A stretch of DNA of 64,000 nucleotides, taken from the NCBI GenBank assembly GCA_004335835.1, contig RWJK01001247.1:3027-67026 (forward strand). Reading direction: 5' to 3'. The translations under genes and the position numbers were made by a program. The notes beneath the pieces are model-generated. The model saw nothing but the letters and a program-made list of their open reading frames with translations, was not told where the DNA came from and made no database searches. Of the stretch, positions 793 through 63,600 are shown in pieces; within the stretch, counting starts at the first letter, position 1; the number at the start of each line of letters is the position of its first letter. The DNA is from Scenedesmus sp. ARA3. Taxonomy: Eukaryota; Chlorophyta; Chlorophyceae; Sphaeropleales; Scenedesmaceae.

Positions 793-3700
793 CTAGCTAG
801 CCGCCGCCTCCACAGCCATCATTGCAGCTAGCAGCCGCACCACTGCCCCCTCATCACTCAGCTCCACAGCAGCCAGCTGCTGCATCAGCTGCCAGTACTG
901 CTCGTCACGCTGCTGCAGCTGCGGCAGCGCCAGCCTGCTGACTGGCTGGCCAGCCTGCTGCAGCGACAGCACATCTGATGCGCGCACCAGCACTGCCCTG
1001 TCCACGCCACACATGCGTGCGCAGTTGAGCTGCGGGAGCAACAGCAGCAAGGCAACAGGGACAGTCAATGGCGTAAATCAGTGGCATCTGTGCGTCTGCA
1101 GTCGTGGAGCGCTAGGTACTGTGGCGAGCAGCCCCTGTGCTCGCCAGCAGCAAAACAATAGGATCCAAGGCAGACATCACCGGCCTCGCAAGCAATGCGA
1201 ACACCGGCCAGCAACAAGCAAGACGTGTGTCATGCTCGCAGCACGCGCAGGCTGAAAAGAGGGCTTGCAGGCACACACATAATCTGCCCTGTAAGCCCTA
1301 AAACCTACAGGTAGCCCAACAATCTGCACTCACCCCATAGCTGGCAGCCACCTTCCCTTGCACCAGCTTGTACAGAAACACGTGCTCCTCATCAATACCA
1401 GCAGCAGCAGCAGCGTCCTTCTGCTCCTCCTTTTCCACACCCCTTGCTGCTGCTGCTGCCTCATCATCCCCGCTGCTGCGCCCAGCCACCAGCACCTGCA
1501 TCGTGCAGAGCTGCAGCTGCGGGTGTGGTGGCAGCACCTCAGGCCCCAGAAGCTCCACAAAATGTGTGCAGGCCAGCAGCATCGGCGGCACCGGCTGCGC
1601 TGTGTAGTGCTGCAGGATGGATGCCAGCAGGCCCACCCCGTCTGAGGTGAGGGTGCCTTTGCCAAACTCGTCTAGCAGCACCAGGGAACGGCTGGTGGCC
1701 CTGTGCAGGATGGTGGAGACCTGCAGCAGTGTCCAAAGCAGGCAGCAGAGCACTGTGATGGGGTGCTGCACGCTACCCAGACATCTCACGGTTGACCAGC
1801 GGACGGCCCATGCAGTCGTGACAACAAACATGTGGGGCAGCTGGGGTGGAATCGTTGGCAGCGACACAGCAGCGGCGCGGCAGCTTGCACTAATTGATCC
1901 TGCACTGCCCCGCCACGACAACACATACAGAGCAACTGTGCAAATGTGTATTGCAAACAGGAGCAGTCTGTCGAAACAGCCTGCACTCATACACACGTGG
2001 CCCAGGCCTGCCATGAATATGCTGGCATCCTGCTGCACGTCCCCTGCACTGTCCTGCTGGATTTAGTAACACGATTTGCAGCAGCCTGTTGCTAGCTTGT
2101 CTGTTATATGTATGATTATGACGCGCCTGGCCCAGGTCTGCCATGAAGCTGTTGACATGCTGTGCTATCACTCGCTACGCTGCTGGATTACATGACAACA
2201 TTGCCTTTGCACTGCTGGCGGCAGCCTGTTGCTGGCCTGTCATCTCATCTGCGTCCGGTCTGCCATGAAGCTGCTGGCGTGCTGCGCCGCTGCCCGCCAT
2301 GCTGCTGGATACCACAGCCAACAAAGCCATTGCACTGCTGGCGGTAGACTGTTGCTGGCCAGTCCTCTCACCTGGCCCAGGTCTGCCATGAAGCTGCTGG
2401 CTGACTTACAAACATCAGTACTTGCTTTCTTTAGAGGCGTGTTACGCATATCAGCCGGCACATGCTCTTACCTGGCCCAGGTCTGCCATGAAGCTGCTGG
2501 CATGCTGTGCCACCGCCTCCATGCTGCAGCAGGGCAGCCGTGTGAGGATGCGGTCGCGCAGCCCGACTATGGCGCGCTGCGCTGGCACGAAGCTGCCCAC
2601 ATGCGCCAGGTACACCAGCAGCGCCACCTGCATAGTGCAACACAATTTGAACAAAGCAGTGTGAGGATGCGGTCGCGCAGCCCCACTATGGCGCACTGCG
2701 GTGGCACAAAGCTGCCCACATGCGCCAGGTACACCATCAGGGCGACCTGCAGTTGCATAATGACACCAGCATGCCAACAAACCATCGTGTCAAACCAGCA
2801 TGTCAGCTGTGGTCAAGTGTCACAAGGCGCTCTGCTTTCATACCTGCAAAGCGCGCGTGCACGGATGCAAAGCAGCCGAAGGGCAGAAGTTTGAACAGGA
2901 AGGCAGAATTTAGCAGAGGCCCTTTGCCAGTGATGCATTGACATGCAGCTGTGCTGGTTGCGGTTCCCGTTCAAAGTGGAAAGGTTGCAGTATAGCAGTA
3001 CCGAGGCTCCCAAACAACCCACCTGCTTCATGTACACAGACTTGCCAGATGCATTAGGCCCTGTGATGAGTATCATGCGGGGCCCTGCTGCCTCACTGCC
3101 TTGCTGCTGCTGCTGCTCTGCTGCTGTTGTTTCTGCTGCCGGCATGCCTAAGCAAGTATCGTTTGGGATGAAGCGCCCGTCTGTCAGCAGCTCAGTCAGA
3201 GGGTGGCGCCCTGTTTGGTGGCAGCAGCAGCAGCAAGCATAGCAGGCGGCAGGCTTCAGCTGCTGCATCAAGCCGCTGACACCAGTACTACCTGGCTGCT
3301 GGCGCTACTAGCATACATGCAGCACTGCACAACTGTTGACAGCACTGAGCAGACCGTCCACTTTCCGCACAGGACTTCAGCACACGCTTCTGTTTGCTGA
3401 TGCCCCACCTCCTTTGATCAGCAGTACATCGTCAGTCGTCAGCGTGGGCCGCACGTATCCCAGTTCCCTCGCTGCTGCAGCGAAGCTGGCCAGGCAGTCC
3501 AGCTCAGCCACTGCTGCCGCTGCTGCTGCCAGGCGGGGGCCAAACTCCAGCAGGCGCTTGATGAGCTCCGTGCAGATGCTGGTCTGCAAGCGTGCAGCAA
3601 CGCAAAGAACCAATGCATCACGCTGAATGATATGCACAACAGGGTAGTGAGTGAGATTCACAGCAGTCCACCATCCTTGAACACTTGACAGTGCTGAGCT

Positions 3701-6700
3701 CAGAGAGATCTGCATGTCAGGTGTATCTAAAGGCGGCGTGTATTGATGTGTCTGCCTGAGCGCAAGACTTCAACATCGGACTCATCGGCCTCATCTGTCA
3801 TGAACGTGGGGGCGCATAAACTCTCTGGTCAAGCGGCGAGGCAACTTGCACAGCAGGCAACCCACCTCCAGGTCCTGTATCTTCTGCTGCAGGTCCCCGT
3901 ATTGGCTATTGAGCTGCTGCGTGCACTCGCAGTAGTAGTAGGCGCAGCTGCCATCGCCTGCCTGCCCTCCCATGTCAGCACCTGCAGCAGCACAGCAGCA
4001 GCAGCAGCTATGTGGTCAATCCACAGGTGCCTCGGTGCTGCTTAGCGCGTCTCCACCAGATACAGCCAGTTGCTGGCTATGCTGCGTTTTTGTCAAACAC
4101 CATGATCCAGCTTGTCAGCTAGCTGCAGACCCTGATGCACAGCAACAGGCGAGTGCTACACAGCAGATGCCTAGCGCGCATGGCAACAGCAAGCGCGCCT
4201 GCCGCTGCTGCTGCTGCCGCCGGCCCCTCATCCCTCATGCATGCCAATCCGAACAGCCAGAACTGCGCGAGCAACCCTAGTAAACGCCCACCTGCCGCCG
4301 CTGCTGCTGCCGCCGGCCCCTCATCCCCCATGAAGGCTAGGTCATAGTCAGGCAGCAGCTCCAGCAGCTCCTCAGCCAGCCGGCCCCCAGTCACACACAT
4401 GGTGAAGCCCACCTGCACGGCACAGGGCGTACAGCTGTACAGCTGAATGCGTGAACACCCACCTACAAGTTGCACACTCATATGAGCAGCTCCAAAACCT
4501 CCTCAGCCAGCCGCCTGCCAGTCACACATGGGTGCTTTGTTATATGCTTTGATTCCATCGGGACACACAGAATGCAGAGTTGCAGCTTTTGATGCTCGGC
4601 GGTGATTGTCTTGGTGTGCACAGAGTTGAAGGGTAGCAAACCCTTGGCGTTGAACAGGCGAATAAGTACGCAACACAGCAAAAGCTGCATGGCATGCAGC
4701 GCCCACCTGAGATGTACACGATTGAGCACAGCTGACTGCAGATGCTGTACAGCACTGTGAGGCCACACACGTCTCAGCCACCGCTAACGTGCCAGTAAAT
4801 ACAGCGCAAGGGTTCGCACCTGAGGAATGTACACCATTGACCACAGCTGGCTGCTGTAGCGGCGCGCAACCTGCGCTGGCACGCGCTGCAGCTCAGACTC
4901 CACCACCTGCAGCAGCACAAGAGTAGCACTGTCCCGCGGCATTAACATGGACCCCCATGTAGCCATGCTGGCACAGCTGATGCACACATTGCGCACACAT
5001 GAATTGCAGTGCAACGCACTGCCTACAGCGCCGAGTCAGCCATGTACAAGCGTGGCCGGCCCAGTCTAGATGCTGCGCTATGCAAATGCAGCATGCCACG
5101 GCAACCCTCGCACCTGTGTCAGCAGCTCCGGCAGTGCTGCATGTGTGGCCTTCAGCTGGTCCAGTGCGTCACACACACCAGGCTGCACCAGGCAGCCATC
5201 AGCAGGCGGGCTGCTGAGGTCCAGCACATCACCTATAAGTGTGCCACCTGTATGCAGCATAAAGCAAAGGTTTGCCAGTCAGCAATCATTAGGCAAAGCG
5301 AGCAGACAGTGTGGTGGACAGCCAACGGCAGGCCGGCTGCTGAGGTCCAGCACGTCACCGATCAGCGTGCCACCTGTGCAGCATATAGAAGAAGCCCGCC
5401 AGTCGGCCCACCAGCCAGCAGGGTTACACATATATGCAAACAGGCAAGGGAATGCATCACATGAACACCGCTAAGCAGCGTGACTTCTAGTTTTGGTATG
5501 CGCACGTCTTGTCGGCCACAAAGCGAGGACTGGGGCATTCTCACACCCACACTCACATGCGGTGAGCTGGGGGCCAATTGCAGCCAGCAGCTTGAGGATG
5601 ATGGCCAGCTTGTCCCAGGGGCTGGCTGCAGGCTGGTGGCGTGCCTGGAAGCTCGCGCCGCCACCAAACCCTGCAGCAGCGGCATCATCATCTTCTGGAT
5701 CCAGCTGCAACCAAGGCTCCAGCCCATCCTGCAGCCACGAGGGGCAGGACGTGCACACAGTGTGCACGTTCAGTCTGGCAGGTGCAGGCAGCGGCTGCTG
5801 CTATGCTGATAGGCTGGGTGGCTGCTGCTGGCAACAGCTTTGGGTCTCTATTACCCATCATTAAGCACACACGCTAGCAGCTGCTAGCACAGGGCAAGTT
5901 GTACATCGTACATCCAGCTATGGCAGAGCTGACGGGGTATGTACCACAACTCACCGCTGAGGCCCTGCCATTGCCTGCGCCACGTGGCCGCTGCGGCATG
6001 TAGCCGCCAGCTGCTGCCGTGCCCTCAGCGTCTCCTATCGCTGCTGCTTGTGCTGCAGCTGCGGGCGCCAGCGCTGCCACCATCTGCTGCAGCTGCATCA
6101 GCTGGTTGATGCTGTTCGCAAGCTGCTTGAAAGCTGTCAGCCTGGGCCGTGACTGGCTGAGGCGCAGCTGGGCCAGTAGGCGGGGCACATCCAGCACCTG
6201 TGACATGCACATGACAGTGTAACAGGAAAGCACGGGATGAGAAGTTTGGATGCTCCGAAAGTATTTACTAGCCCTGCAGTCCTAGGGAACTACTGCTTGA
6301 AACAACAGAGAACGAGGGGCTGCTTCTGCACGATACACGCGCAGCACCGTTTTGCTGCAGTTGATGAAGAAAAAAAAATGTATGTGCTATTGCAGCAACC
6401 GTGTTGTGGCATGCTTGCCAGCCCACCTGCTTCATCACTGCCCGCAGCGCATCGTTGGTGCTGGGGGCCTCCAGCAGCAGCTCAATCGTGTCGTGCCTGT
6501 CTGCCAGCACCTCCAGCTGCACCACCGGCCGCAGGAACCACTGCCGCAGCAGCCGCTTGCCCTGAAGGCAGGCAGCATCGGAACACGGCAGTCACACACA
6601 GCAGCAGTATGCACGACAATATGAACAACCACTGTCGCAGCAGCCGTTCGCCCTGCAGGGTGGCGCACGTGCAAAAACAGCTGACAAGACATCAGGGAGA

Positions 6701-8873
6701 AGGGCTTCAACTCTGCGGCAGCTGGTGAGATGAGTGCGGCTTGCAGGACGCTGGCTGTAATGCTGGAGGCCGCCAGTGTGCATGCACAGAAGTTGAAGGA
6801 TGCGCCGTACCGCATGGCTGCCACAAGCTGAACTTGCTGAGCCACGGCTGCAAATATCTACAACCGTATAGTGCTGTCATTCGAGGCCATGCATAGCAAA
6901 CCAAACTACAGCGCACCATGCCAGTCACGCAGCGCTGCAGCAGGCCGTACACGCTTGCTCCCTCTTTGCTGCTGCCTATGCCCATGGCGCTGGGATGCTC
7001 CTCTTCCTTGAACACGTCCAGCGCTGACAAGCTGGGGCCGTCTATGAGCAAATGCCTGCAAGCACAACCCACACAAGACAACGTGACTGGTGGCCTGCTG
7101 CAACTATGCATATGATCTAGGCCCAAGTACAGCGTGCACAAGTGCTGCATTGTCAGGATATGCTGCCCACATGCACAGCAGAACGCAGGCAGCTGAAGCA
7201 GTATTGGCAAAAAGCGAATCCGATTGCGCCATCCCAGACACTTGACGCACAAACACAGCAGAGTCGTGCAGCAACTGGACGATAAGATATCATTCTTGTG
7301 CAGCAGCAGCATCAAGCTCACCCCTCCAGCTTCATCTCTGTCAGCTTGTCCACCAGCAGCATGCCTTCCCCGCCACCCGCATCTTCTTGCTGCATGCACA
7401 CAGGCAGCAAGGTACATTACCATGCCAACGGCGGTGACTTGGCAAGCCGGCGATGCAGCATTTGCACATTCAGTTGGTTTGAAGACGCTTGATGCACAAT
7501 TCCCGTGCACGTGCTTGCAGGACCGACACAGGCGAGTGGTGTCATTCACAATACAAGTATGCTTCAAGCCAACAACAGCAGCTTTTGCAGCGCAAAGTTG
7601 CTCTGTTGCCGCTTGCACAAACCACTGGCTTGCAGTAGGGTGCATGCCCGCACCTGCACTTGCAGCAGCACTGCCACTAGTGCTCCCAGAGCTGCAACCT
7701 GCTGCTGAGCTGCCAGGTCAATCAGGTCAGCTGTTGATGCCATGGTGCTGCTGCCTTGATGCCCTGCCCTGCCTGCAGCGCCTGCTGCATGCAATTGGAG
7801 CTGCTGCTGGTTGTATTGGTTGCCGCTGTGCTCTCTCACGGCCACGGCTGCAAGCATTTTCAGCGCCTGGGTTGCATACATAGCAGCAGAGGTAGCAGAA
7901 GCAATACATGAGGGCGAACTGTGCTTGAAAGACAATAGCATCGTACGGATGCGTCATCATGCAATGCAATCACGAACGGGTGTTTGTATCTTGTATCTGG
8001 TAGCCGTGCTGCAAAGCAAGGTGTACAAATGTCACCAACATGCCAGCTACGCTCCATGCACATGCTTAGCTGCAGCGACTTGCAGGAAACCGTCCTGCAA
8101 CCACATGTTCATGGCAGCCCAGAGGCTATACACACCCCTCACCCTGTCATATGTGAACATGCTGGGCCGCTGCAGCTGCACGACCACCTCTGCATCTCCC
8201 TCAATGCCATCACCGGCAAGTGCTGCTGCTCCTGCAGCTGCAGCAGCTGGCGCCTTGGCTGCCGCAAGCAGGTCTGCCTCTGCTGTTGCTGGCAGCACGA
8301 TGACCTGTGGGTTGACTTGCAGCTTGACGTACTGCAGCATCTGATAGGCGCAGGCGCCTTTGCTGTCATCTGGCACTTGCATGACAGACAGCTGCGAAGC
8401 GGCAGTTGCAGCAGCAGGCAGCAGCAGCGAAGTCAGCACAGCAGAGCAATGCAATATCGATTGCATCTACGGCAGCTGTGTTGATCTGTGCAACTCCTGA
8501 GCTTTGTCTTATGGCGGTGGTGTGCTGTCTGTCAGGTCATCATCCATCCTGCAAGTGCTGCGCATGCCAGCCAGATGTTACGCACCTCATTGCTCAGCCT
8601 GTCATACGCTGCCAGCCCAAGTTGGCCTGCCTTGTAGCAGCACGCTAGCCAGCGGCATCCTGGCAGCGGCTCAGCACTTTCTTCTGCCTCCTGCTCGTCT
8701 TCCTGCAGCTGATCAACGCTCGCTGCTGGTCCTGCTGCTGGTGGCAGGGCAGGACCAGCCAGCCAGCCATTCTGCTGTTTGTGCCGCTGCTGCTGCGCTA
8801 ACGGTGTCACACAGCCAGTAGTGGTGAGTGGTCTTGCAGGTGCTGCCCTGATTGGGTTTGTTGAAGCATCCAA
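793..8873 (-). CDS. MSH5: MutS homolog 5 (meiotic MSH5), 17 exons
   Basis: MSH5 pairs with MSH4 as a clamp that stabilises meiotic crossover intermediates. Joining 17 exons keeps one frame and gives 1035 aa (human about 834): 8873-8586, 8391-8143, 7866-7654, 7389-7322, 7055-6917, 6561-6427, 6197-5955, 5728-5557, 5247-5114, 4906-4820, 4412-4292, 3981-3866, 3583-3409, 3210-3023, 2627-2472, 1720-1334, 1029-793. The ATPase core is intact: Walker A TGPNASGKS (exon 14), the LAHVGSFVPA and SFMADLGQ segments (exon 15), Walker B LVLLDEFGKGT and a THF switch motif (exon 16). The N-terminus (QLGLAAYD), the lever segment GKRLLRQWFLRP and the GRLAEELLELL region follow the MSH5 order and not that of MSH2/3/6. 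Extra length comes from Ala/Gln-rich insertions. The start is the first ATG before the conserved N-terminal segment. The introns hold at least ten partial exon copies, annotated separately. Confidence 0.93.
1990..2405 (-). repeat. Four tandem 3' fragments of MSH5 exon 15 with donor-like ends
   Basis: Downstream of the intact exon-15 donor at 2472/2471, the segment encoding roughly SSFMADLGQ plus its donor recurs near 2371-2400, 2251-2280, 2121-2155 and 1991-2030. Spacing is about 100-130 bp. The intervening spacer (GCCTGTTGCTGGCC-like) is shared, so these are true tandem repeats. Copies decay with distance: ASSFMADLGQ, then ASSFMADRTQ, VNSFMADLGQ and ASIFMAGLGH. Confidence 0.9.
2664..2746 (-). 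repeat. 5' fragment of MSH5 exon 15 with its own acceptor
   Basis: A CTGCAG acceptor followed by a near copy of the first 83 bases of exon 15 (encoding LAHVGSFVPP and GLRDRILT) lies about 120 bp upstream of the intact exon at 2627. The copy stops matching after the RILT codons and would not encode the rest of the exon. Confidence 0.9.
4185..4255 (-). repeat. 3' fragment of MSH5 exon 11
   Basis: Downstream of exon 11 (4412-4292), a partial copy encodes MRDEGPAAAAAAAG and resembles the exon's end MGDEGPAAAAAAAG. Confidence 0.8.
4484..4532 (-). repeat. Fragment of MSH5 exon 11 upstream of the intact exon
   Basis: This copy encodes CVTGRRLAEEVLELLI and matches CVTGGRLAEELLELLP of the intact exon. 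It breaks off before the rest of the exon. Confidence 0.8.
4660..4775 (-). repeat. 3' fragment of MSH5 exon 10 with donor
   Basis: Downstream of exon 10 (ends 4820), a copy encodes SQLCSIVYIS followed by GTGGGC. It matches SQLWSMVYIPQ followed by GTGCGA at the intact donor. Confidence 0.8.
5320..5386 (-). repeat. 5' fragment of MSH5 exon 9 with acceptor
   Basis: Upstream of exon 9 (5247-5114), a copy of the acceptor and the GGTLIGDVLDLSSRPA segment is present (intact exon: GTLIGDVLDLSSPPADG). It diverges afterwards. Confidence 0.85.
6625..6665 (-). repeat. 5' fragment of MSH5 exon 6 with acceptor
   Basis: A CTGCAG acceptor followed by codons for GERLLRQW lies about 95 bp upstream of the intact exon beginning GKRLLRQW at 6561. 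Homology ends within about 25 bases of the acceptor. Confidence 0.75.
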
Positions 8874-14961: not shown

Positions 14962-15002
<41 letters not shown>

Positions 15003-15688
15003 ACGGCAGCAGCTAAATGCACAGCTTCATGTGCCGCAGTGACTGCAGCTGCACATGCATCTGCATTGGCGCGCACTATCTGCCATAATTCCTTCACGCA
15101 AGAACCTCAAAGTGCGCTGACACTGCGGCGTGTCTGCTGCTGCTGCTGCTTCTCAGGGCTTGCTGCCAACTGCTGGGGTCAGGATGAGCTCAAGCAGCGC
15201 TACCCGCAGCTGACCGAGGATGTGGATGCTGACGTGTGCATTGTGGGCGGGGGCATCAGCGGGCTTACCACTGCCTACCTGCTGGCCAAAGCAGGTGAGT
15301 GGGTCAGGCTGTGTGATGGTGTTGGCATGCGCATATGCCTGAAGACGTGGATGCTGACGTGTGCATTGTGGACGGAGGATTAACGCACTCACCACTGCTT
15401 ACCTGCTGGCAAAAGCAGGTGGGGTTCTGGCTGTGTTGTTGTGTGGGCTTGGCAGTGTGCCTCTGTGCAGTTGTACTCGCTTGACAGCGCAATGCAGCTG
15501 CTGCACGCATGTGACATGTAGCCCAGACGCACTGCGTTGGTGGCACCAATAATGATAGCATTGCAAATACCCCCGCCGCTGCCCTGCAGGCAAGCGTGTC
15601 GTAGTTCTTGAGTCCCGTCTGATCGGCTCAGGCCAGACCGGCCGCAGCCTGGGTGACACGACTCCCTGGCACACCAGCTGCAACTGAC

Positions 15689-15738
<50 letters not shown>

Positions 15739-15846
15739 CCTCCTGCAGGCAAGCGTGTCGTAGTTCTTGAGTCTCGTCTTATTGGCTCCGGCCAGACTGG
15801 CCGCAGCCTGGGTGACATGACGCCCTGGCACACCAGCTGCGACTGA

Positions 15847-15931
<85 letters not shown>

Positions 15932-17700
15932 ACTGCAGGCAAGCGTGTCGTACTTCTTGAGTCTCGTCTTATTGGCTCTGGCCAGACCGGGCGCTCCCTG
16001 GGTGACATGACGCCCTGGCACACTGGGCTGTTCAGCAGCCTGGAGCGCTGGACCAACAGGGAGCAGCGCCAGCAGGTGTGATGATCAAAAAGATGATGAG
16101 CTCATTCAAAAATAAACAACATGCATGAACAGATGAATGTATTGCATGCACCTGTTGTGCCTCACGGGGGTGTTCAGCAGCCTGGAGCGCTGGACCAACA
16201 GGTAGCAGCGCCAGCAGGTGTGGGGCGTAGGACAGTTATCGTTGACTCTGTGTTTTACAGACTTCTAAACTGATTGTTTCCCATTCAAATTTGAAATCGT
16301 TTTGATGCGTTGCGGCACACTGAGCTGTTCAGCAGCCTGGAGCGCTGGACCAACAGGGAGCAGCGCCAGCAGGTGTGGGCCAGGATGACATGATATTAAT
16401 TTAATCATGGATGTACGACGATCAACTGTTCAATGTATCCACTTCACCTGTTGTGCCTCATGAAGCTGTACGGCAGCCTGGGGCGCTGGACCAGCAGGGA
16501 GCAGCGTCAGCAGGTGATGTGGCGGGGGCTTAGGATGGAATGAACCAACCATTCCCCTTGCGTGGTGCGGTTTGAAGACATTCCCTGTGGCTTTGACCGG
16601 GTTCTTGCAGCTGGTCAAGCCTCTCTCTGCCTGCACATCGCCACCACTGATGTCACGCGCCTCCAACGCCCTCCCAGCATACAACACATGCTGAACATGA
16701 AACCTTGCTGCGTGCACTCCTCCTTTTTGCTGCGCCTGATCACTGCATCGCCTGCAGGTGGCTGTCAGCAATGCAGAGGCCATCAACTTTGTGGAGTCTG
16801 TCGTTGAGTCAGAAGGCATCTCCTGCGGCTTCTCCCCCTGCCCCAACTTCCAACGCAACAACACTTGCACAAAGCAGTACTGCTGCGTTTGTTTTTTGTT
16901 TTTGCAGGTGGCCGTCAGCCACGCCGAGGCCATCCACTTTGTGGACTCTGTGGTTCAATTGGAGGGCATCTCCTGCGGCTTCTCCCGCTGCGCAAATCTC
17001 CACTGCAACAACCCTGATACAATTCAGTGCTGCTCCCAACAAATTATATTGTGCAGGTGGGCGTCAGCAATGCAGAGGCCATCAACTTTGTGGAGTCTGT
17101 TGTCGAGTCAGAAGGCATCTCCTGCGGCTTCACCCGCTGCCCCAACTTCCTGCTGGCGGCGCCTGCCGTGGCGGTGCCTGGCGACAGCAGGGACCCCCGG
17201 AGTGTGAGCAGCAGGAGCGGCGACGCCAGCGTGCGCGAGGGAGGTGCGTGTTTGCTCGGCTGGCGTGTTTGTTTGTTGCAGAGGCTAGCTGCTTTGTAAT
17301 TTGACCAGTGAAACGTAGACATATAGGAGGGCAACAGTCGGGCAGTGCTTGTCGTGGCTACTGGCATTTGATATGGTTTGGGCTGTTGCAAGGACTGCAC
17401 GTGCCAGTGGGCGGTGCCTGGGGACTTTTGCAGCGTGAGCACCAGGAGCGGTGATGCCAGTGTGCGCAAGCTTGAGGGAGGTGTGTGTGTGTGTGTGCCT
17501 GGCCGGCTGCCCTGGCAGATACTGCTGCATGCAGATCTGCAGTGAGCCAGCGGTTCACGTCTTTGCAGTCTTGCAAGCTTTGCCAGGAATGTTGAAATCC
17601 TGCTCGGAACAACGCCGGCACTGCGAACACGCCTTGTGACAATCGTGCAGTCATGTTATTAACTCGACTTGCACCTGCCACTGCTGCTGCTGCGGCTCCC

Positions 17701-21474: not shown

Positions 21475-23504
21475 GCCAGGCGACTGCGGGCGGATCATGA
21501 CTGGTGGCACGCTGGGCGGCAACATCATTGCCAGCCAGATCCTGGGCTGGCCCGCTGCGCAGCTTTACAAGGACCTGTACAACCCCTCGTGAGTTTCATG
21601 ATCTTTTCAATGTCAAGATGAACCTGATTTCTTGGCAAAAACAATACTCAACACCGTCATTGCCAGCCAGATCCTGGACTGGCCCTCTGTGCAGCTCCAA
21701 CAAGACCTGTACAACCTGTTGTGAGCTTTTGCCCATCACTCTCTGCAGTGTCAGCTTCTTCTCTCAAACCCACATGTTTGTGCTGTTGCTCTGCTGCATC
21801 TACCTCCTCAACTGCTGACGTGTTGTATTACACGGGCTGTGGATTTGACATTACCCTTTCAGCACTCTCTCACTATGATCCTGCTTTGCATGTGGTTGCA
21901 GGCGCAAGCTGCGGGGCGGCATCCCAGGTCTTCCTGCCTGGTCTCCCCGCTACTTCAAGAACACCATCCAGAGCGCGCTGGACATGCTGCTGCCGCTGCC
22001 GCACTACGTGAGGGCAGCTGGTGACATTGAAAACCTTGCCAGGGGTGAAGGGGCCATCATCAACAGTGGCCTGCGCAAGGTGAGAATGTAAAAGGGCACC
22101 AATCGCTGCTGGTTTTGGATGAACGCCTGGTTTACTTCTTTGGTTACTGTTCTGTTGTGTGGTTGCTTATGTTATTGGAGTAATGTTGAGCGTGCCAGAT
22201 GCTGCCGCACTACGTGAAGGCAGCGGGTGGGATCGAGAACCTTGCACGGGGAGAGGGAGCCATCATCACCAGCGGCCTGCGCAAGGTGTTTTGTTGGATG
22301 TCATGAGATTTTCATTTGCAGCATTGTTGTTACTTTGCGGCTGCGGATCATCACTTGCATTCACATAGCAGTTGAAGCCCGCGTCGATGCTTCCAAGGGG
22401 CTGAACAACAGGCTGCGCACCATGGAAGACCCGTCAGGATCGGTTTGACGTGTGAGCGGCACACACAGACCTGTGGTGCCAGCCCTGCTGTAGCATATGT
22501 TGCGGCAGCTGCTATGCTTGGCTAGTGCTGTCCACAGAGCTCTGCTTGTGGAGTAGTGCGTTGGCTGAAAGCCATGATGCATCATACCTGATGCAGCTGT
22601 GTTGCTTGCTTCTTCTGATCATCATCGGTACAGCTTGCAACGCAGCTGCAGCATGTGTGCACCAGGGCACAGCCCCAGCATGCAGGTCATGTGATATTAC
22701 AACTCCCACACCAACACTCTCCCCGCACGCAAACAAATGCCACATGCATGCACAGCTGCATGTAGACCCACTGTGACATGATAGCACATCTTGCGCCATG
22801 AGTTCATGGGGGCACTCGCTAACTTCTGCGTCCAGAAGCAGCAGGTAGAGATATACACGCACACTGTAGATGCTGCAGCTGCTTGGCGTGCGGTGAATTG
22901 TGGAACAGCTTGTTTTTATATTATATAAACTATATATATAGTCAAACAGCTAGGGATTGTGTACAGCCTGCTGAGCTCGTGCACCAGGCTATTGACTCTT
23001 CTGTGAACGTGTAATATGCAAGCCTGCAGCATGAGCCTCCAGCGCCTTGACCAGCAACAGAGGCATAGCTGAACTATGTGTGCCACGCTGCTGCTGCTGC
23101 TGGTGCCCTCAGGCACTTGACAGCGCACAACGATGAGTTGCGGCAGGTGCAGCGTTGCACATCTGCTGTACGCTTGCTGCCTGCCCCAAACTCTTGTTCT
23201 TGTTCGGTTGCGGGTACATTTGTGTTGTAACAAAAAACCTGATGAAAGCGGCGTGCTTGGGCTTACTAACAGCCCTTTCATCTGCGCTGCACTGCTATCT
23301 TTCCTGCAGGTTGCTGTGTACAAGGATGACGCAGGTGAAGTCACGCGCATGAGCGGGCTGTGCCCTCACCTGGGCTGCCTGCTGCAGTGGAACCCCGAGG
23401 ACAAGGAATGGAACTGCCCTTGCCACGGCTCATGCTTTGACAAGCAGGGAGCAAACATCTGCGGCCCGGCGACAATCGACATGACGCAGCTGAAGTCCAA
23501 GTAA
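14263..23504 (+). CDS. FAD-dependent oxidoreductase with C-terminal Rieske domain, 14 exons
   Basis: A DAO-type flavin oxidoreductase fused to a Rieske [2Fe-2S] domain, the same layout as bacterial YhfW-type proteins; the substrate is unknown. Exons 14263-14497, 14857-14955, 15157-15294, 15939-16075, 17057-17243, 17738-17796, 18182-18290, 18839-19040, 19517-19685, 19995-20099, 20993-21074, 21480-21588, 21902-22079 and 23310-23504 join in frame to 667 aa. The N-terminus (MISSATRRCSTLGQ..., rich in Ser/Arg/Ala, few acidic residues) resembles an organelle transit peptide. Next comes the Rossmann motif VCIVGGGISGLTTAYLLAKA (exon 3), VVLLESRLIGSGQTGRS (exon 4) and a late FAD-contact segment GRIMTGGTLGGNIIA (exon 12). 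Exon 14 carries the Rieske ligands CPHLGC and CPCHGS. The gene is the richest here in duplicated exon fragments; the intact copy was chosen by frame and completeness. Confidence 0.9.
15338..15419 (+). repeat. 3' fragment of oxidoreductase exon 3 with donor
   Basis: A copy of the end of exon 3 (DVDADVCIV..., then LLTCWQKQ in a shifted frame) lies 50-130 bp downstream of the intact donor at 15294/15295 and keeps a GCAG/GT junction. A deletion in the GGGISG region would destroy the FAD motif. Confidence 0.88.
15590..15843 (+). repeat. Two upstream 5' fragments of oxidoreductase exon 4 with (CTG)n between
   Basis: Copies at 15590-15686 and 15749-15843 each start after CTGCAG and encode GKRVVVLESRLIGSGQTG, matching intact exon 4 at 15939. 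Both continue to PWHTSC and then hit a stop. Each is followed by a (CTG)n run (about 15690-15737 and 15848-15931) leading directly into the next acceptor. Confidence 0.93.
16160..16515 (+). repeat. Three downstream 3' fragments of oxidoreductase exon 4
   Basis: Near 16166-16218, 16318-16374 and 16462-16514 the codons for FSSLERWTNREQRQQ plus a GTG(T/A)TG- or GTGTGG-type donor recur after the intact donor at 16075. Sequence decays progressively; the last reads YGSLGRWTSREQRQQ. Confidence 0.92.
16758..17010 (+). repeat. Two upstream 5' fragments of oxidoreductase exon 5
   Basis: Copies start after acceptors at 16757 and 16907 and encode VAVSNAEAINFVESVV and VAVSHAEAIHFVDSVV, then ISCGFS. The intact exon begins at 17057 (VGVSNAEAINFVESVV). 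Each copy loses homology after the CPNF/CANL position. Confidence 0.92.
17408..17480 (+). repeat. Downstream 3' fragment of oxidoreductase exon 5
   Basis: The end of exon 5 (GCGGTGCCTGG, SRSGDAS, donor GAG/GTG) recurs about 235 bp after the intact donor at 17243, followed by a short (GT)n run. Confidence 0.85.
17862..17893 (+). repeat. Downstream 3' fragment of oxidoreductase exon 6
   Basis: Codons for VAGLDVNMV with donor GTGCGC recur about 95 bp after the intact donor at 17796. Confidence 0.85.
18037..18068 (+). repeat. Ten-base minisatellite in an oxidoreductase intron
   Basis: Four near-perfect units of CAGCTCCTGG (one with a G-to-A change) lie in intron 6. Confidence 0.8.
18547..18780 (+). 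repeat. Two upstream 5' fragments of oxidoreductase exon 8
   Basis: Copies from 18547 and 18717 encode GNYGDMMYKTTRMHKA and GKYGGRIYETTRMRKA, matching intact exon 8 at 18839. Both are followed by the same GTGAC(A/C)...TCTCTGCAGCTGG segment; the second is preceded, and the intact exon is also preceded, by (CTG)n and GCATGCAG. Confidence 0.92.
19186..19262 (+). repeat. Downstream 3' fragment of oxidoreductase exon 8
   Basis: Codons for GCVLASASAVTISILNSA recur about 150 bp after the intact donor at 19040 (intact: GYVLATASPVTSSILDSA). Confidence 0.88.
19289..19470 (+). repeat. Two upstream 5' fragments of oxidoreductase exon 9
   Basis: Copies from 19289 and 19408 begin after (CTG)n-CCGCAG acceptors and encode RYVVALKILKNSGYQPGVYY and a shortened RYVVALKI...SGYQPGVYY. 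The intact exon starts at 19517 and continues to the ALITPGKASTKM segment, which both fragments lack. Confidence 0.93.
21378..21472 (+). repeat. Long (CTG)n microsatellite ending at the exon-12 acceptor
   Basis: An almost pure CTG run of about 95 bp (over 30 units) ends in TGCCAG at 21479, directly before oxidoreductase exon 12. It occupies the position where a polypyrimidine tract is expected. Confidence 0.95.
21655..21724 (+). repeat. Downstream 3' fragment of oxidoreductase exon 12
   Basis: Codons for IASQILDWPSVQLQQDLYN plus a TTGTGAGC donor recur about 70 bp after the intact donor at 21588 (intact: IASQILGWPAAQLYKDLYN). Confidence 0.9.
22199..22285 (+). repeat. Downstream 3' fragment of oxidoreductase exon 13
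   Basis: Codons for MLPHYVKAAGGIENLARGEG and then IITSGLRK recur about 120 bp after the intact exon 13 end (22079) and keep the AAG/GTG donor. The copy is long and clean enough to be spliced. Confidence 0.92.
22905..22942. repeat. AT-rich stretch in the last oxidoreductase intron
   Basis: A short block of TATA-type alternation lies in the 1.2 kb intron 13 and stands out from the GC-rich surroundings. No function can be read from it. Confidence 0.6.
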
Positions 23505-43369: not shown

Positions 43370-44354
43370 CCGGAATAGGGCCTGCCAGAGCTTCTACTCG
43401 GAGCATCAGTGTACAGTCTTGCATTTTTTTGCAGTATTGCGCTGTGCTGTACAATATTCACCGGCTAGTGTCTTCGCCGCCAGGCTGGGGCAGGACGTTG
43501 GCGTGGTGGAACAGTGTCTGATCATGACTAATGGTTTAAGAGTTTGACACATGGCAGATGCACAGCATAATTTGAAGCCGTCAATTGGGCTAAGCTATAG
43601 TTGGTGGCGTCATGTGAAGGGTGGATGCCAGATGCAGCACGCTCGTCCATGGATTGTGTCATCATTGGTAGCTGTGAGAGCTGTTTAAAGAACTACAAGG
43701 ATTGACTAATAAATGTCTTCTTGTTCCTCATCCTCATTGCTGACCGGGCTTGATGCATCAGCACCTGATGCCCCGCCGGGGACAGACTGCTGTGCTTTGG
43801 GGCTTGGAGCCCCCAAGCCTGTACGGTACAGGGTGTATCTAATGTATAAGAACGAATTTACACATCCTCCGAGCCCTCACGAACCGCAGTGGATGCGAAA
43901 CTAGCTAATGTGTAAATACTTGCAGGATACGTGTGTATTGCCTGCTGACTACTGTCAGGTTACTGTTTGCAGTCGCACATGACGCATGTGATATGAGGTG
44001 TTGCAACGATGGAAAGATACTCAGTATCGCCAAGCTCTCGGGCAACGCACCTTCTTGAATAAACAGTTGACTCAGCCCAACTCAACCAACCCAACCATGT
44101 TACAGCTATGCCGTCTTCAGCGCTGTCAGCTGCTGCGCCACCGCCTGCACCCCGCCAACACTGCCTCCCTCTCCCCTGGCACTGACCGCCTACCAAAGCG
44201 CGCCCCAAACTTATCTGGATGCCAGCGCATGAGCTCCTTACGCAGGGCCAGCCTCATTGCATCAAGCCCCGAGGCACCTGGTGCCGGCTGCCATGTCTAA
44301 GCCTGGCTAAATTCACTCTCGTAATAACACATTTTGCAACGCGCCATGTAACAG
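43370..44354. other. Convergent region between the C2 gene and the NFKBIL1-like gene
   Basis: No independent gene is evident. It contains TGTAA on the plus strand (43911-43915) and on the minus strand (44100-44104), so the two 3' UTRs overlap. It also holds a decayed copy of the NFKBIL1-like last exon at about 44095-44290, annotated separately. Confidence 0.5.
44095..44290 (-). repeat. Tandem copy of the NFKBIL1-like last-exon end, including stop region
   Basis: About 190 bp here repeats 44342-44535 at an offset of roughly 247 bp. It contains MRLALRKELMRWHPDKFGARF, then drifts out of frame before a copy of the TAG stop and downstream bases. It lies downstream of the real stop and so is 3' UTR or intergenic. 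Confidence 0.9.
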
Positions 44355-45825
44355 CTATGCCGTCTTCAGCGCTGTCAGCTGCTGCGCCACTGCCTGCACC
44401 CCTGCCAACACCGCCTCCCGATCCCCTGGCACTAACCGCCCACCAAACCTCGCCCCAAACTTGTCTGGGTGCCAGCGCATGAGCTCCTTACGCAGCGCCA
44501 GCCTCATTGCATCAGGCCCTGATGCACCTCCAAACAGCAGGCTGCGCAGCTGCTGCGGATCCAACTGGATCTCTCCATGAGCTATTTGTAGCTGAGGCCC
44601 TCGCGCTGCTGCTGCTGCCGGCGGCCAGGGGATGTCTGCATAGCCAATGGGCTTGTGCTTGGGCCAGGCGTCGAGCGCTGCCCACTTGGCTTCGTATGCT
44701 GCGCGTCTGTTGGGTGCAGCGGCCTGGCAAAAGCAGAACACATGTGGCACAGGGCAAGCGGAGCAGGCGCAGGGTAGCAAAAGCAGGATGTAAGAGCTTG
44801 CAGGAGACACACAGCAGGAGGGACAAGCATGGCAGAAGACAGCAGCACAAAAAGGCCAGCAGAGTCGATGAGGATGCATAGTTAAGGAGGCAATACGTGT
44901 CTTAAACAAGAGAGCCTGAGCGCAATTACTGTCGTGTTACTAGAGCCGTTTCTGGGAGAGCACAGCTGTGACAGCAGTCATGACATGACAGCAATCCTCG
45001 CATGACAGCAGACATCGCATGATCATGCTGTCTGAACCTCCGCAGCTCACCTGCTCGATCTGCTGCATCATCGCTGCTCTCCAGTTACTGTCCTTGGCTT
45101 GCTCCTCCTTAGACCCTAAACCTGGAACCCTAACCCCAATCCCTAAACCCTCGGCTGAACCTCCACCAGCTCACCTGCTCGATCTGCTGCATCATTGCTG
45201 CTCTCCAGTTACTGTCCTTGGCTTGCTCCTCCCTCAGAATCCTCGCAGACTCTGCTGCCGCTGCCTCAGCCTTACGCTGCCGCTCTTTTGCTGCCGCATC
45301 CCGCCCTTCAGCGCCCCTGCCAAAGCCAGCAAAGGCTGACCGGCCGCCTGAGCGTGCGGCTGCAGCAGCGGCAGCAGCAGCAGCCACCTTACGGCCGTGG
45401 TCCTGCAGACAGCAGCGGCAGCGCAGGTACAGCAGGAAAGGCGGGAAACTCAGTGCCTGCCTAGCTTCTCAAACCAGCTTTGCTTGTGCGCCCATGGTCC
45501 TGCATAGCAAACACCAGCTGCAGCAACAGCAGCAGCGGAGTTGCAGCAAGGACAGCAGAGAGCTCAGTGCATTGCTATCGCCTAAATGCAGCTTCGCTCC
45601 AGCTGACGGTGCATTACACATGCAAACCTAACATGGCACATACCCTGCCGCTCACAAACAGGTTCCTATCGATGCCTTGCACAGAAGCCCGCCAGGCGTT
45701 GTGTGACTGGTGTGAGAGCATCTCCATCGGCTATCAGCACACACAAGCCACTGAGTAGCTGCCCGCAAGCCCCACCTGCATATCTTGCCACAGCCTGTCC
45801 GCCCATGCTTCATCATCGTCCTCGT

Positions 45826-45860: not shown

Positions 45861-48800
45861 CCCCCAGCAGCTGGCTTGCCATACTGCGCAGCAGCAGCAG
45901 CAGCGCCACCCCAGCCTGCACCAGACAGACTGCAGCAGCGGCAGCAGTGGCAGCAGAAGCACAATGAGTGTGCGGCTATGTCGTGTATGCACGTGCATTG
46001 CCACTTCACAACAGTTGTTGCGATTGTGTGATTCGAGTGACGCCACCAGCAGTGATTTTAAGCAGGAGCTGTGCGATGGTGCTGAGCCTGCGGGAGTGTT
46101 CGCCCATGTGTCCAAATCACATTGCTGAGCCAGCACCTGGTCGCCTAAGCCCTGAAGAGCATCTATCTCAAAGAAATCTTGCTGAACATAACATCACAAT
46201 GACGCACCCGCCCCAGCCTCCTTCATCATCACTCATCTCCTCCGCAAGCCGAGCCCTCCAATCATCGTCATCATCTCCAGCAGCACCACCAGCAGCAGCA
46301 GCAGCACCAGCAGCAGCACCAGCACCAGCAGCAGCGCCGGCTGCAGCCAGGCCTCTGCTGCCACTACCTAGGCTGCTGTCGCTGCCGCTGCCGCTGTGTG
46401 CGGCAGCGTGTGGCAGTGGAGAGCCTTCGCTCTGGTTGTGCCGCTGCATGATCTGCTGAATAGAGAGGCCTGCATTATTGGTGACAGACAGGTCAACTGG
46501 CTGCTCTGCACCCTGCACAGCAGCAGCGAGCGCATCAAAATGGCTGTGTTACTTGTTTTGTTTCGATCGTCATCTTTGCGGCAGATGCTCTTGGTGGTCT
46601 CCCCCGACAAACATGTAACATGACAACAGCCAGTGACAAGGAAACATCAAGCACGTGATGAGCGAACACACTCATCGCCAGCAGCTGCTGCAGCAGCAGC
46701 AGCATCAGCAGCAGCAGCTAGTTTGTGGCTCGCACCTGTATGGGCTCTGACAGTGCCAGCCAATGGGCATGCATTGCAGCCAAGTGCCCAGGTGTGTTGC
46801 CGGCAGAGAAAACATCAAGCACATGATAAACGTAAACATAACGCAAAACATACTCAGCACCAGCAGCCTGCTGCAGGTGCGCACCTGTATGAGCTCTGAC
46901 AGTGCCAGCCAGTGGGCATGCATGGCAGCAAGGTGCCCAGGTGTGTTGCCAGCAGCATCCTGGGCAGATGGATCGGCATGGCGCCTGCAGGGCAGCAGCA
47001 GTGGATGCGCGGCATGCGTTGGTTAGCATCGTGAGTAAATCAATGACGCTCCAAATAACAATGGCGTGCTAACTCTCAGGTCTTTGTCTCCTCCAGATGT
47101 CGGCCAGCAAGAGAATAACAGATGACTCATCCCTCAGGGTTGCCCCTGCCAGCCATGGCCATCGCTGCAGCGCCTGCGAGGCTCAGCGCCCACCAAGGAG
47201 ACCTCTAGCCCCTAACCAAATGATACATGTTGCAGCCAGAGAGGCTGAAAGAAGCAGAGCCGGCGTTTGCAGCCGCTGTGGATTTCTGCGATGGTTGGTC
47301 AACCACTTTTGGGCCCAGGCTGGGCGTCACAGCCCAGCAGAAGAGTGACCCTGCTCGCACTTCTTGAGGAAGCAGACAACGCCCGTTTGCCAGCAACCTG
47401 AATCATACTATGGGCGAATCAGCCAGCATACACCGCGACACGGGCTTTGCCCTGCATCCATCAAGCGCGTTCGACCGACACTGACTTGCCACCGCTTGCC
47501 AAATCGACTGCGTGTTGTCTTTAATCAACGCTGATGTATGAGATAGCAAGTGAAGTCACGGTGATTGTTTGCCTGGTGTCGTGGGCTTGCCTTTGCTCAG
47601 GTGGGTGAGGCACGGGTGATCACAGCAGGACCGTAGCATCGAGACAAGTCCACCGCCTGATCCAAAACGATTTTTAATCTTAACAATATCTAAGCATACA
47701 GTGATATAGTATGTCTATGTCTTTGTCACACCACGTCAGCATGCATGTCGAACCAAAGTTGGTCCGGTTCGTACTTGAGCACAGCCCTGCGGTAGCCTGG
47801 CAGCTGAGTGCAGCACAGTGCTATTTCCTCCTCTCTGCAGCCATGCAACGAGCATTATATTACGTCTCTGGAGAAATGCGACCTGACAATTTCAAACCAG
47901 CTTTCAGGTTCAAGTTTCCTATGTGCTGGCACTCAACAGGCTTCATGTTGACAGCTGCCTCGTGCTGCCCGCCCCTCGTGTCTGCCTGCTGCCAGACTGT
48001 GCTGCAGACATTCAGCTGGGCCCCAGAAGGCTGCTGCAGGCACACCAGGCAACTGAGCTGCAGCTGCCTACCCACGATGTGCTGCAAACAGCAGGAACTG
48101 TGGCCACGCAAGGACCCCAGGCTGTGCAGGCAGAAGAACTGCCTGCAGCAGCAGCAGCAGCAGCAGCAGCGGCAGCCACTCCACCTGCTGTACATCGCTA
48201 CAAGCCCAAGAGCAGCACAGCTGCCCTACCCAGAAATGCAGCAGCACCAGCCATGCGGCTGAACCGCTCATCCATGTTTGCTGAGCCTCCTGCGCCTAGC
48301 GTTGCTGCACCTTCACACACAGGCCACAAAGGCCATGGGAAGGCTGGCAATGGTGGATCTAATGGCAACCGGCTGCTCAGCAGGCCTATGAGGCTTAGCT
48401 TGGCAGAGGCAGAGCAGCAGCTGATGCAGCCCAGTGCATTAGTGTCCCATAGGTGTGCACATGAGCATGGCCGTTTGCCCACACTGTTGCTGATTTGATT
48501 GTGGTTGAGGCTGTCTTGGTTACCGTGCTTTGTTGTCTAGAAGGTGCACTTTGCAGTGCGCAAGGAGACATGTTCAATTGCAGTCTTGCAGAGTTTGGTG
48601 CGGCAAGTCAAGGATACTATTGAGGCGATGCATGTTCAGCCGTGCAGTTGTCAATTTAGTTCTACAGGGTTGATTGCTCTGTTGGGAGGATATGCATTGT
48701 TGAATTGATACGCATGAGTAGCCCCTCATCAAATGGTTGCAGCACAACAGTTGAGTCAGCGCAATGGCAGCACAGCATGCTGTTTCACACACAGCACAGC

Positions 48801-59204: not shown

Positions 59205-59231
59205 ACAACATATATGTTGTCTATATAGACA
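59205..59231. repeat. Two overlapping perfect palindromes
   Basis: ACAACATATATGTTGT (59205-59220) and TGTCTATATAGACA (59218-59231) are both perfect palindromes and share three bases. They lie about 120 bases beyond the binding-protein stop codon on the minus strand, next to its candidate TGTAA signal at 59105-59109. Confidence 0.85.
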
Positions 59232-59350
59232 GCTGCTGAAAAAAGCACAATGATCAGCTGAATTGACGTTGCATCCGGGACTCCCACTGCAGTTGCTGCG
59301 CTTTCTGCAGACGAGGCTGCTATACATCGATCTGCTCGACCATCTTCTGG

Positions 59351-60565: not shown

Positions 60566-60601
<36 letters not shown>

Positions 60602-63600
60602 TCAGCGCAGTTCGTTTGGTGTGTGCTTGATGTGTTACAATACCTCACTGTACAGCATGCATGTGACGAGCCATCCCAACGCCTGTGCTGCACGTTTTTT
60701 ACACAAGAGATGGAGGTTCAGGGCGTGCAAACCCAGATTTGCTCGCTCACCCTTGCTCAAGCCTGAGATAAAGTTAAAGCACAGGCCGCATCCAAACATC
60801 ACATACAGTTTTCAGTGCTCAGGAGGTTTGCAGGCTTCAGAGTATGATCGCTCACCTCTTGTGAAGCCCGCACTGAAGTTAAAGGCCAGGCCGCATCCAA
60901 ACATCACATACAGGTTATAGTGCTCAGGAGGTTTGCAGGCTTCAGAGTATGATCGCTCACCTTTTGTGAAGCCCGCAATGAAGTTGAAGGCCAGGCCGTA
61001 GCCGTAGGCATTGTCCTCGTATATCAGCGCCGTGACGGTTGCGCCACTCTTGCGCACGAGATTGGCCGCAGTCACGCCCTGGAACTTGTCCGAGGGCACC
61101 TGCAAGCGAGAATAACAGAAGAAAATAAGGGGAGCTCCATTTGCATGCTGTGCTGTGCTGTGCTGTGCTGTGCTGTGCTGTGCTGTGCTGTGCTGTGCTG
61201 TGCTGTGCTGTGCTGTGCTGTGCTGTGCTGTGCTGTGCTGTGCTGTGCTGTTCTGTTCTGTTCTGTTCTGTGCTGTGCTGTGCTGTGCTGTGCTGTGCTC
61301 GTGCTGTTGTTTGCTGGGTTACAGCAGCAGCAGGTGTGGCTGGTGGGGTGTGAGTAGTTGTGCCAGGTGCTACGCTTGTGTGCATTGTAGCAACGGCACA
61401 CACATGAGTTGCGCTGGTTTCCAACACACTGCATGGTCTACAACATGAAGCCTAGCTTGCCCCATACACAGCTCCGTGCCATACCTACCGCCCTGAAAAG
61501 AAGTCTTTCTCCGGCAGCAATGGGCTGGTCGATGCGCTAGCATGTTATGTAAATACACTGCATGCTCATAATATGGTAAGCACGTTTTGTGCTGCAGGGA
61601 TCATGAGGACTGACAGGTGTTAGTTTGACTAGGCTGTTGTCATCAGGGTTCAAGTGCATGGTAGTGTGATTTCGCTCTATTAAAGCAGATACAGCTTGGC
61701 TTGAATGCCAGCTGTTTGATTGTACGGGAGCAACGTTTGTGCATGCGCGTTTCCCTCCCACCCACCCTTGATACTCCATTGATGGGCTGTCATTTGCCTC
61801 TGCTTGACTACATACCACCATGTCAGTACTGTGCGGGATGTGTGCTGTGTGCTGCTCAGCTGAGAATGCTGAGCTGTCACTGCTCTGGCGGCTGCTGTGT
61901 GCGCGGCACACGCGTAGCCTGCCCGCTTCTGGCCCAACCTCACTCATTGCTGGCATGTCTGTTGTTATGTTAAGTCAAGATGGGGATATTGTAACACACC
62001 TAAGGCAATCATGATCCACAGCTGATGCATGTGCATCTCTGTTCCACACGTACCGTCCTGAAGAAGAAGTCTGACAGCGATGGGCTTGTTGATGCGCTTT
62101 CTATGCTAGGCAACCCGCTGCACAGCCTGCAATATGATGTGGAGCTTCATGTATAAGCAGCTCTGCACCACACGTACCGTCCTGAAGAAGAAGTCTGTCT
62201 CTGACAGTGATGGGCTAGTTGATGCTGGGCTGATGATTAGCTTTGCTAGGTGACACACTGTATGGTCTACAACATGAAGCCTAGCTGACTGCATACACAG
62301 CTCTGCGTCATACTTGCCGTCTTGAAGAAGGAGGCTGTGTTTGACAGTGGTGGGCTACTGTGCGCGGGCCTTCACATGCAATACACTGCATGGCCTGGAA
62401 CATCATGCCCAGCTTACTGGGTACACAGCTCTGTGCCATACTCACCGTCCGGAAAAAGAAGTCTGTCTCTGACAGTGATGGGCTTGTTGATGCTGGGCTG
62501 ATGATGGGTATCTTGCGCATGTTGGCGATGCCTGCTGCTGCCACCGATGCCCGAGAGCAGATGTCCCCGATCACGCCAACTGCACAGCAGATCAGAACAG
62601 ATTGAGGTGTCAAAAGTCAAGTTGTTTTGCAGATGTCTTTGATGACACCGACTGCAGGGAAAACCAGAATAGTTTGCGGGACAGGAACAGGCAGTGGGCC
62701 TCAGCGGGTACATGCCAGCTGCTTGGAAGCAACAGATGATGAGGTGCCTGGTACATGGGCAGGTGATGGTGTGGCGTGACGGTCATGGCTGGACACACTG
62801 GAAACAAGCACACCAACAACGAGTGCAGCATGTAGCTTCTAGACATCAAAGACAGTTGGGTCGGGGAACTTTAGCAAACAAACAAACACAGATCATGTGT
62901 GCCGTGCTACTCACTTGCTCCCTCAGCAGCAAACTTGCTGACAGCCATGTGGGCCGGAATATCCTCACACTTGCTGTTGATGCATGTGATGTTCACTGCC
63001 ACACCCGGAAGCTCCTTAGGAACTAACTCAGTGACCGCCATCTTCATTGCATTCAGCACGGCAGCTCCAACCAGCTGCTGAGATCCCTCAAAAGGCACCG
63101 AGCAGCCGATGAGGAGCGTCTGCTTTGCATCTTTTTGGGTAAACAGGAACGGCGGCGGTGCTTTTACTGAGGGACCTGCCATTGGCATGGGCGGCGGCTG
63201 GCTGCCGCCGCCGCTGCTGCTGCTGCTGCTGCCAGCTGCTGGTGGCACTGAGGTCACTGGATTCAGCCCAGTAGGGGTAGTTACTGCGCCTGTTGCTGCT
63301 GCTGGCGCTGCCGGTGTCAGCTGCTTGAAAATGCCAGAAGCAGGCGCTGTTGCAAACGCTGGCTTTAGCAGCGGATGTGAAGTCATTTCAGGCGCTGCAG
63401 TGGGTGCTGCTGGCGCTGCTGCCGGCGGGATTCCTGCGGGCGTTGCAACCACTGTTGCTGATGTCGCCCCTGGGTGTTTTGCTGGCACTCCTGCAGGTGC
63501 GGCGGCTACTGTTGCTGCTGCTGCTGCTCCTGGCTGCGTTGACACCACTGTTGCCACTGCCGCCGCTCCTGGCAGCGTTGGTAGTACTCCAGCAGGTGTG

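Follow-up and report, generated by a model that had tools for sequence, protein, structure and literature searches.

Partial copies of exon ends in Scenedesmus introns: probable short local duplication at high density and copies that stop at splice sites

Exon-edge copies in the window and in the sampled genome

In this study, we followed up partial copies of exons that lie in neighbouring introns of the green alga Scenedesmus sp. ARA3, starting from a 64,000-nucleotide stretch of contig RWJK01001247.1 (positions 3,027 to 67,026; G000:C907:3027-67026), hereafter the window, in a source genome of 87.3 Mb and 1567 contigs. A first-pass annotation of the window had described such copies in the introns of five genes: MSH5, a FAD/Rieske gene, membrin, a gene that we take to be NFKBIL1-like and a ligand-binding gene. 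The Pfam search of the window genes gave MutS_V, Rieske, V-SNARE_C and ANF_receptor above the cut-off and DAO just under it, while the NFKBIL1-like gene had no Pfam match. A self-comparison of the window by BLAST, with simple repeats masked, at least 50 bits and a spacing of 30-1000 bp, gave 38 nearby direct matches vs one nearby inverted match. After these had been collapsed at a spacing of 40-600 bp and pairs below 50 bits had been dropped, 29 non-redundant direct-repeat pairs at 17 loci were obtained, all of them in the five named genes, which bears out the presence of the copies; the count of about 39 partial copies made by eye was not reproduced.

The exon-edge echo pattern is real and widespread in the sample that could be read, which comprised 313 kb in 19 pieces (290 kb fetched plus the window, 0.4% of the genome; L004 and L011, which are all N, were left out). 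It contained 148 non-redundant direct pairs at 93 loci, or one pair per 3.4 kb. Exact direct repeats of 14 nucleotides with a spacing of 90-170 bp numbered 31-76 per 20-bp bin vs 1-2 inverted ones, an excess that excludes a chance origin, and the copies were most often spaced by 90-160 bp, their number rising again at 220-260 bp. As had been suggested for the window, the process is uneven between stretches: pairs occurred in 15 of the 19 pieces, the other four had none, and 14 of the 93 loci fell in a single 10-kb piece (L014). Within the window, the regions 22.3-39.2 kb and 47-60.7 kb held none of the 29 pairs at 50 bits or more, and matches below 50 bits were present in the giant gene and near MSH5. 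The gene predictor, which was trained on the sampled DNA, returned 577 exons (median 102 bp) and 523 introns (median 244 bp) in the sample, and as a check its proteins matched MutS_V, V-SNARE_C and Rieske; some exons escaped it, among them exons of the ligand-binding and FAD genes, and the class counts given below are therefore approximate. A repeat block covered 131 of 1054 predicted junctions. Among the papers listed by a literature search limited to open-licence papers, none was found that reports exon-edge echoes as a genome-wide pattern in an alga.

The pairs in MSH5 (minus strand) are located at 2.1-5.4 kb. Self-BLAST and the exon model placed three related exon-edge copies in an array at 2126-2527 (2126-2305, 2257-2401 and 2471-2527), and at 2536-2751 the copies 2536-2632 and 2655-2751 lie 119 bp apart with 92% identity over 97 bp. 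A further pair at 4198-4332 has a distance of 93 bp, 95% identity over 42 bp and a spacer of 51 bp, and at 5193-5407 the acceptor end of the predicted exon 5114-5247 is accompanied by an intronic copy, or decoy, at 5319-5407, upstream in transcription. The FAD/Rieske gene (plus strand) carries pairs at 15.2-22.3 kb: at 15205-15462, the donor end of the predicted exon 15157-15294 with a decoy downstream (15330-15462); at 15592-16023, the copies 15592-15673 and 15751-15832 with CTG tracts between them, followed by an exon copy (15943-16023); at 16753-17150, decoys 16777-16851 and 16927-16991 ahead of the acceptor end predicted at 17076; and at 21525-21728, a donor-bearing exon end with a decoy 132 bp downstream, in an exon that was read from the sequence and missed by the predictor. 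In membrin (plus strand, 39.2-39.6 kb; feature 39224-39550), the acceptor end predicted at 39506 has the decoys 39285-39328 and 39399-39442 on its upstream side and, read by eye, the acceptor and about 45 bp of exon are repeated twice upstream.

The NFKBIL1-like gene (minus strand) has pairs at 44.1-47.0 kb. At 44095-44529, the stop-codon end of its last exon (44344-44529) is matched by a 91% copy (44095-44279), which lies beyond the gene and has no splice site. At 45032-45232, a donor end (45155-45232) has a 96% copy (45032-45108) across a 46-bp spacer, and at 46731-46955 a donor end and its decoy, in an exon read from the sequence and not predicted, are 149 bp apart with a spacer of 73 bp. 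The 46-bp spacer (45109-45154) consists of TTTAGGG-like units, similar to telomere repeat that was picked up where a break was joined in repair. In the ligand-binding gene (minus strand, 60.7-62.5 kb), a donor-bearing exon end that was read from the sequence is followed by two downstream decoys at a period of 105 (60740-60998), and the predicted donor end at 62446 has four downstream decoys, of which three repeat with a period of about 124 (61422-62505); by eye, exon end, donor and about 70 bp of intron recur at about 124 bp. The intron with these echoes also contains a 162-bp (TGCTG)n array with 97% matches (61146-61307).

Direction, placement and structure of the copies

The direction of the copies was counted from 112 of the 148 pairs, the 36 with less than 12 bp of predicted exon being excluded. 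Copies of acceptor ends lay upstream in 33 cases and downstream in two (n = 35), and copies of donor ends lay downstream in 34 and upstream in four (n = 38), so that 67 of the 73 pairs with a single splice end followed the rule; a looser count gave 69 of 87 and a strict single-junction count 46 of 50. The other exon-related pairs comprised 12 whole-exon, 11 both exonic, 10 internal and six at a predicted start- or stop-codon end, some of the last at predictor errors. Internal fragments were thus far from being as common as those spanning a splice site (10 vs 73 with a single splice end and 12 whole-exon). Seven window pairs were classed as internal or gene end (4354, 15596, 15755 and 18940; 18542, 18705 and 44095), five of which are in the part of the FAD gene (15.6-19.2 kb) that the predictor mishandled and one of which (4354) is in MSH5. 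The copy of the stop-codon end at 44095-44279 is a clear rule-breaker; the earlier statement that every copy obeys the rule was therefore too strong, although the direction itself holds for most. A local duplication that spans a junction leaves just one copy attached to the remaining exon, and this is the copy that the predictor, presumably like the cell, takes as exon. The rule is therefore largely automatic and is no independent evidence of a special process, which is not needed to explain it.

Exon-related pairs made up 101 of the 148, compared with 49% under random placement. However, the repeat coverage of noncoding DNA in bins of distance to the nearest exon, from 1-60 bp to more than 500 bp, was 0.099, 0.081, 0.093, 0.122, 0.085 and 0.085, a curve that missed exons would flatten. 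A coverage of 8-12% at every distance argues against splice sites being obvious targets, and the idea of such targeting was not upheld, even though exon-related pairs exceed random placement. Much of this excess could follow from a frozen exon copy being recognisable about twice as long. Among the 36 intron-only and intergenic pairs, 12 were related to a nearby exon, one was coding-like and 23 could not be linked to any predicted exon. Inspection by eye shows that these 23 include three or more window pairs (21525, 46731 and 60740) that represent exons missed by the predictor.

With regard to structure, 113 pairs with a spacing of 60-300 bp and a block of at least 0.85 or at most 0.65 of the spacing were divided into 34 full-unit and 79 gapped pairs, whose median identity was 80% and 88%, respectively. 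In the 47 pairs with at least 90% identity, the repeated block had a median of 0.41 of the spacing. Gapped pairs have the form U-spacer-U, in which the lengths of U and spacer are independent (r = -0.10, n = 44, spacing below 200 bp). A fixed unit length was rejected, since the spacing was no tighter than that obtained from randomly re-paired copy and spacer lengths (p = 0.24). Among the matches listed, many spacers matched nothing in the sample, and a CTG tract or an older copy was present in others; of the 41 pairs with a spacing of 195-300 bp, 18 were flagged for an additional copy within the spacer and 23 were not. Spacers as mobile elements were likewise rejected: eight of nine chosen spacers were searched across the genome, and each matched its own place alone at E ≤ 0.001, with simple repeats and common words skipped. 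The intron parts were compared, unmasked, in 87 real-decoy comparisons from which low-complexity copies were excluded. Identity was at most 0.58 in 33, 0.58-0.70 in 24, 0.70-0.80 in 12 and above 0.80 in 18, so that 30 exceeded 0.70, while unrelated introns aligned at a median of 0.50 (95th percentile 0.58). About a third to half of the copies have no recognisable intron flank, and their exon part is no older. When real-decoy and decoy-decoy comparisons were pooled, exon identity was 0.903 with an intron identity above 0.80 (n = 27) and 0.897 with one of at most 0.58 (n = 44). In the former 27, which were selected for their flank, the exon value is close to that of the intron (0.886), which fits a tandem copy drifting as one.

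Local duplication as the probable explanation, and its alternatives

On balance, we lean towards recurrent short local duplication, partly tandem and similar to the duplications that are described in rice and ascribed to break repair, which occurs at high density and adds DNA to introns. Stretches of noncoding DNA of roughly 35-170 bp would frequently be copied beside their source, and the copies would either abut, as true tandems that grow to 3-5 copies with a period of mostly 90-160 bp, or be partially tandem, often with about 70 bp of other sequence in between. We infer that the duplications originate from imprecise repair of breaks or offset nicks; as in break-repair duplications, the copies lie within a few hundred bp of their source and other sequence can separate them, as it does in the gapped pairs. 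Where a duplication crosses a splice site, the copy attached to the exon would continue to serve and the intronic copy would decay. Selection would purge duplications within exons and freeze the exon-side copy, and exon echoes would therefore stay recognisable longer than purely intronic ones. As a net result, introns would gain DNA together with extra splice-like sites, decoys that splicing presumably ignores. This explanation is supported by the 148 direct pairs vs few inverted ones, by the direction of the single-end pairs, by the level coverage of noncoding DNA and by the copying of a stop-codon end. It is also supported by the decay of the decoys, in which the canonical GT or AG is retained in 68 of 87 and 33 of 37 indels in the exon-derived parts shift the frame, and by the independence of copy and spacer lengths.

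Several observations weigh against local duplication as the whole explanation, and two of them, the similarity that stops at the splice consensus in many copies and a bias towards silent sites, are not accounted for by it. In 24 of 35 spacer-bearing pairs with at least 88% identity, the intron-side edge fell -1 to 9 bp from the junction, which is not expected from uniform breakpoints; the edges in this count were taken from masked BLAST, and past them a fraction of 0.17 of the flanks still exceeded the 95% control. Likewise, in 20 of 41 copies with an exon identity of at least 90%, the intron part was no closer than unrelated introns. Together with the small share of the spacing that the blocks occupy, this means that the tandem duplication of 100-150 bp proposed in the first-pass annotation explains only part of the copies, although recurrent short local duplication stands, also beyond the five genes. 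Very young full-unit duplications of exon edges are missing, as only one of the 34 full-unit pairs has 100% identity, and this one, in C1520 (33342-33594), is intergenic; the next are at 93%. The ratio of nonsynonymous to synonymous substitution rates (dN/dS) was 0.31 (0.25-0.38) between real exon and decoy and 0.30 (0.19-0.53) between decoys, or 0.33 and 0.40 without L014, so that silent sites are favoured relative to neutral expectations of about 0.5 and about 1, respectively, which are our own and are uncalibrated for mutation bias. Mutation bias or diverged source alleles are possible causes of this bias. Finally, in a small sample, the donor decoys without intron similarity all had GT or GC (14 of 14; 12 GT and 2 GC), and of the acceptor decoys of this kind 15 of 19 had the canonical dinucleotide.

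The splice-bounded copies could be a product of exon-only conversion in old arrays or, more speculatively, of splice-linked copying. According to the first explanation, which we consider unlikely, the exon parts of old tandem arrays would have been re-copied from the real exon by short-tract gene conversion while the intron flanks drifted, and conversion would end where similarity ends, at the splice consensus. Consistent with this, the exon parts in 34 decoy-decoy comparisons had an identity of 0.886 and 0.30 gap openings per 100 bp, and the intron parts had 0.672 and 7.33, with an unrelated-intron control of 0.497, although detecting decoys through their exon part tilts this comparison towards exon identity. 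The two extreme classes of intron similarity share their exon identity and not their intron identity, four copies of one exon end in L003 (4189-4604) have poorly alike flanks, and three decoys in L014 (4555-5051) share a flank that is absent at the real exon. However, conversion does not predict the silent-site bias, about 60 bp makes a short conversion tract when identity is 90%, and the exon and intron parts diverged alike where the flank is shared. Copying of exon ends into nearby introns that itself respects splice sites, templated for instance by partly processed transcripts, has only a slim chance of being correct; if true, copies would end at GTGAG or CTGCAG, and the introns of this alga would still be growing by such copying. 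Complementary DNA (cDNA) as the template was rejected, because 302 spliced-junction probes gave one match outside their own locus (in L014) when at least 85% identity and 15 bp to either side of the junction were required, six further matches being extensions of the own locus; a looser criterion gave 108 matches, and among the 40 listed many were of low identity. At six of the 302 probes (C800 47735; C1520 4349 and 27592; L009 9644; L013 6006 and 9503), one exon end with the adjoining intron continued to match the spliced sequence for 15 bp or more past the junction, which constitutes short direct repeats at the intron borders.

An assembly artefact or mosaic, in which exon pieces of a second haplotype were set into the introns of the first, is similarly improbable. 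It would account for the silent-site bias and for the similarity ending at splice sites, and consensus errors might underlie some of the one-base differences in frame, but arrays of 4-5 copies at 70-93% identity do not fit it, short gap-like runs of N were absent from the sample (all N blocks were at least 1.8 kb) and a 401-bp MSH5 probe matched the genome once. A public protein matched the window at 6710-7312 with 97.5% identity, but this stretch holds no decoy that we found, and a search of two decoy-spanning frames against public sequences gave no match from the same species. We find it hard to credit that the copies are partly functional, as alternative or mutually exclusive exon ends under selection. 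The dN/dS of about 0.3 and the intact donors of the decoys with unrelated introns, whose median score of 4.6 resembles that of real donors (4.3), speak for function. On the other hand, the dN/dS was alike in decoys with (0.32, n = 24) and without (0.30, n = 76) a frameshift or stop, which speaks against current function, as do the frameshifting indels and the incomplete retention of GT and AG. Donor decoys sharing the intron flank retained GT in just 8 of 15. An opposite splice site at the other end of the decoys was no more frequent (18 of 40 and 16 of 47) than in control windows (20 of 40 and 16 of 47), which gives no support to mutually exclusive exons, and the spacing had no bias towards multiples of three (remainders 0, 1 and 2 in 72, 69 and 54 cases, and in 36, 40 and 25 in a second count). 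Judged by their sequences, the copies thus appear to be mostly non-functional. The least credible proposal is that introns were born when exon sequence with AGGT was duplicated in tandem (the Rogers model), for which we see almost no room: six of the 531 introns predicted (L003, three; L006, one; L019, two) have both of their ends at corresponding positions of two repeat copies, but the other 525 do not and most copies are intronic beside their own exon end, which contradicts the model for the bulk of the copies. In L003 (4259-4601), each donor-end copy has GCAG|CAG|GT, through which the predictor threads 3-base exons, and recursive splice sites are possible. An exon end in L014 (6631-6969), which presumably encodes part of a WD40 repeat, is present in two 95% copies; these differ by one-base indels that may be compensating frameshifts or consensus errors.

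Known systems and intron length

Internal gene duplication was reportedly connected with intron creation by Gao and Lynch in 2009, a study that PMC4974935 cites; intragenic duplication that includes splice sites is common to both cases, while the algal copies are mostly partial and intronic. For rice, PMC7407515 states, with reference to Vaughn and Bennetzen (2014), that inserted segments of 10-1000 bp can represent duplications, either tandem or partially tandem, or contain sequence from up to 200 bp of a break. Small tandem duplications at breaks were attributed to Pol alpha-primase and CST in the relevant passage of PMC8355091. As far as these passages go, the algal copies resemble the rice break-repair duplications in being short and local and in either abutting or having other DNA between them, but they differ in their density at exon ends, in the many copies that stop at the splice consensus and in their arrays of 3-5. 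In the potato RdRp gene, a tandem duplication across an intron-exon boundary made a new intron, and the duplicated segment ran, as in the alga, from the 3' part of an intron into the 5' part of the exon that follows (PMC4974935, in the portion concerned). That case, as presented there, is a single event that created an intron, whereas in the alga the events are numerous and for the most part lengthen introns that were already there. Rogers and Bendich (2025) likewise describe direct repeats around splice sites, but theirs measure 4-30 bp and lie near intron borders (PMC11782384), whereas the algal blocks measure about 33-185 bp and are copies of a single exon end. Introners also provide a recurrent gain of intron DNA, green algae included; in the excerpt of PMC9860276 they are sequence families across many genes, whereas the eight algal spacers tested had no other copy in the genome.

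The introns of Chlamydomonas and its relatives are conspicuously long, and what drives their length was left open in the pertinent part of a 2021 comparison (PMC8226300). In our sample, recognisable direct-repeat copies made up 10% of the predicted intron bases, and introns with copies had a median length of 271.5 bp vs 235 bp for those without (p = 0.026), although longer introns offer more room for copies. Local duplication is therefore a testable contributor to intron length. The copies also represent a natural experiment on how the spliceosome presumably ignores decoys beside a true site, and a warning for gene predictors. The parts worth pursuing are the high density, seen in one 313-kb sample of one genome, and the splice-bounded copies. 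Outside the predicted genes, a 100-bp unit is repeated about 2.5 times at 100% identity in C1520 (33342-33594).

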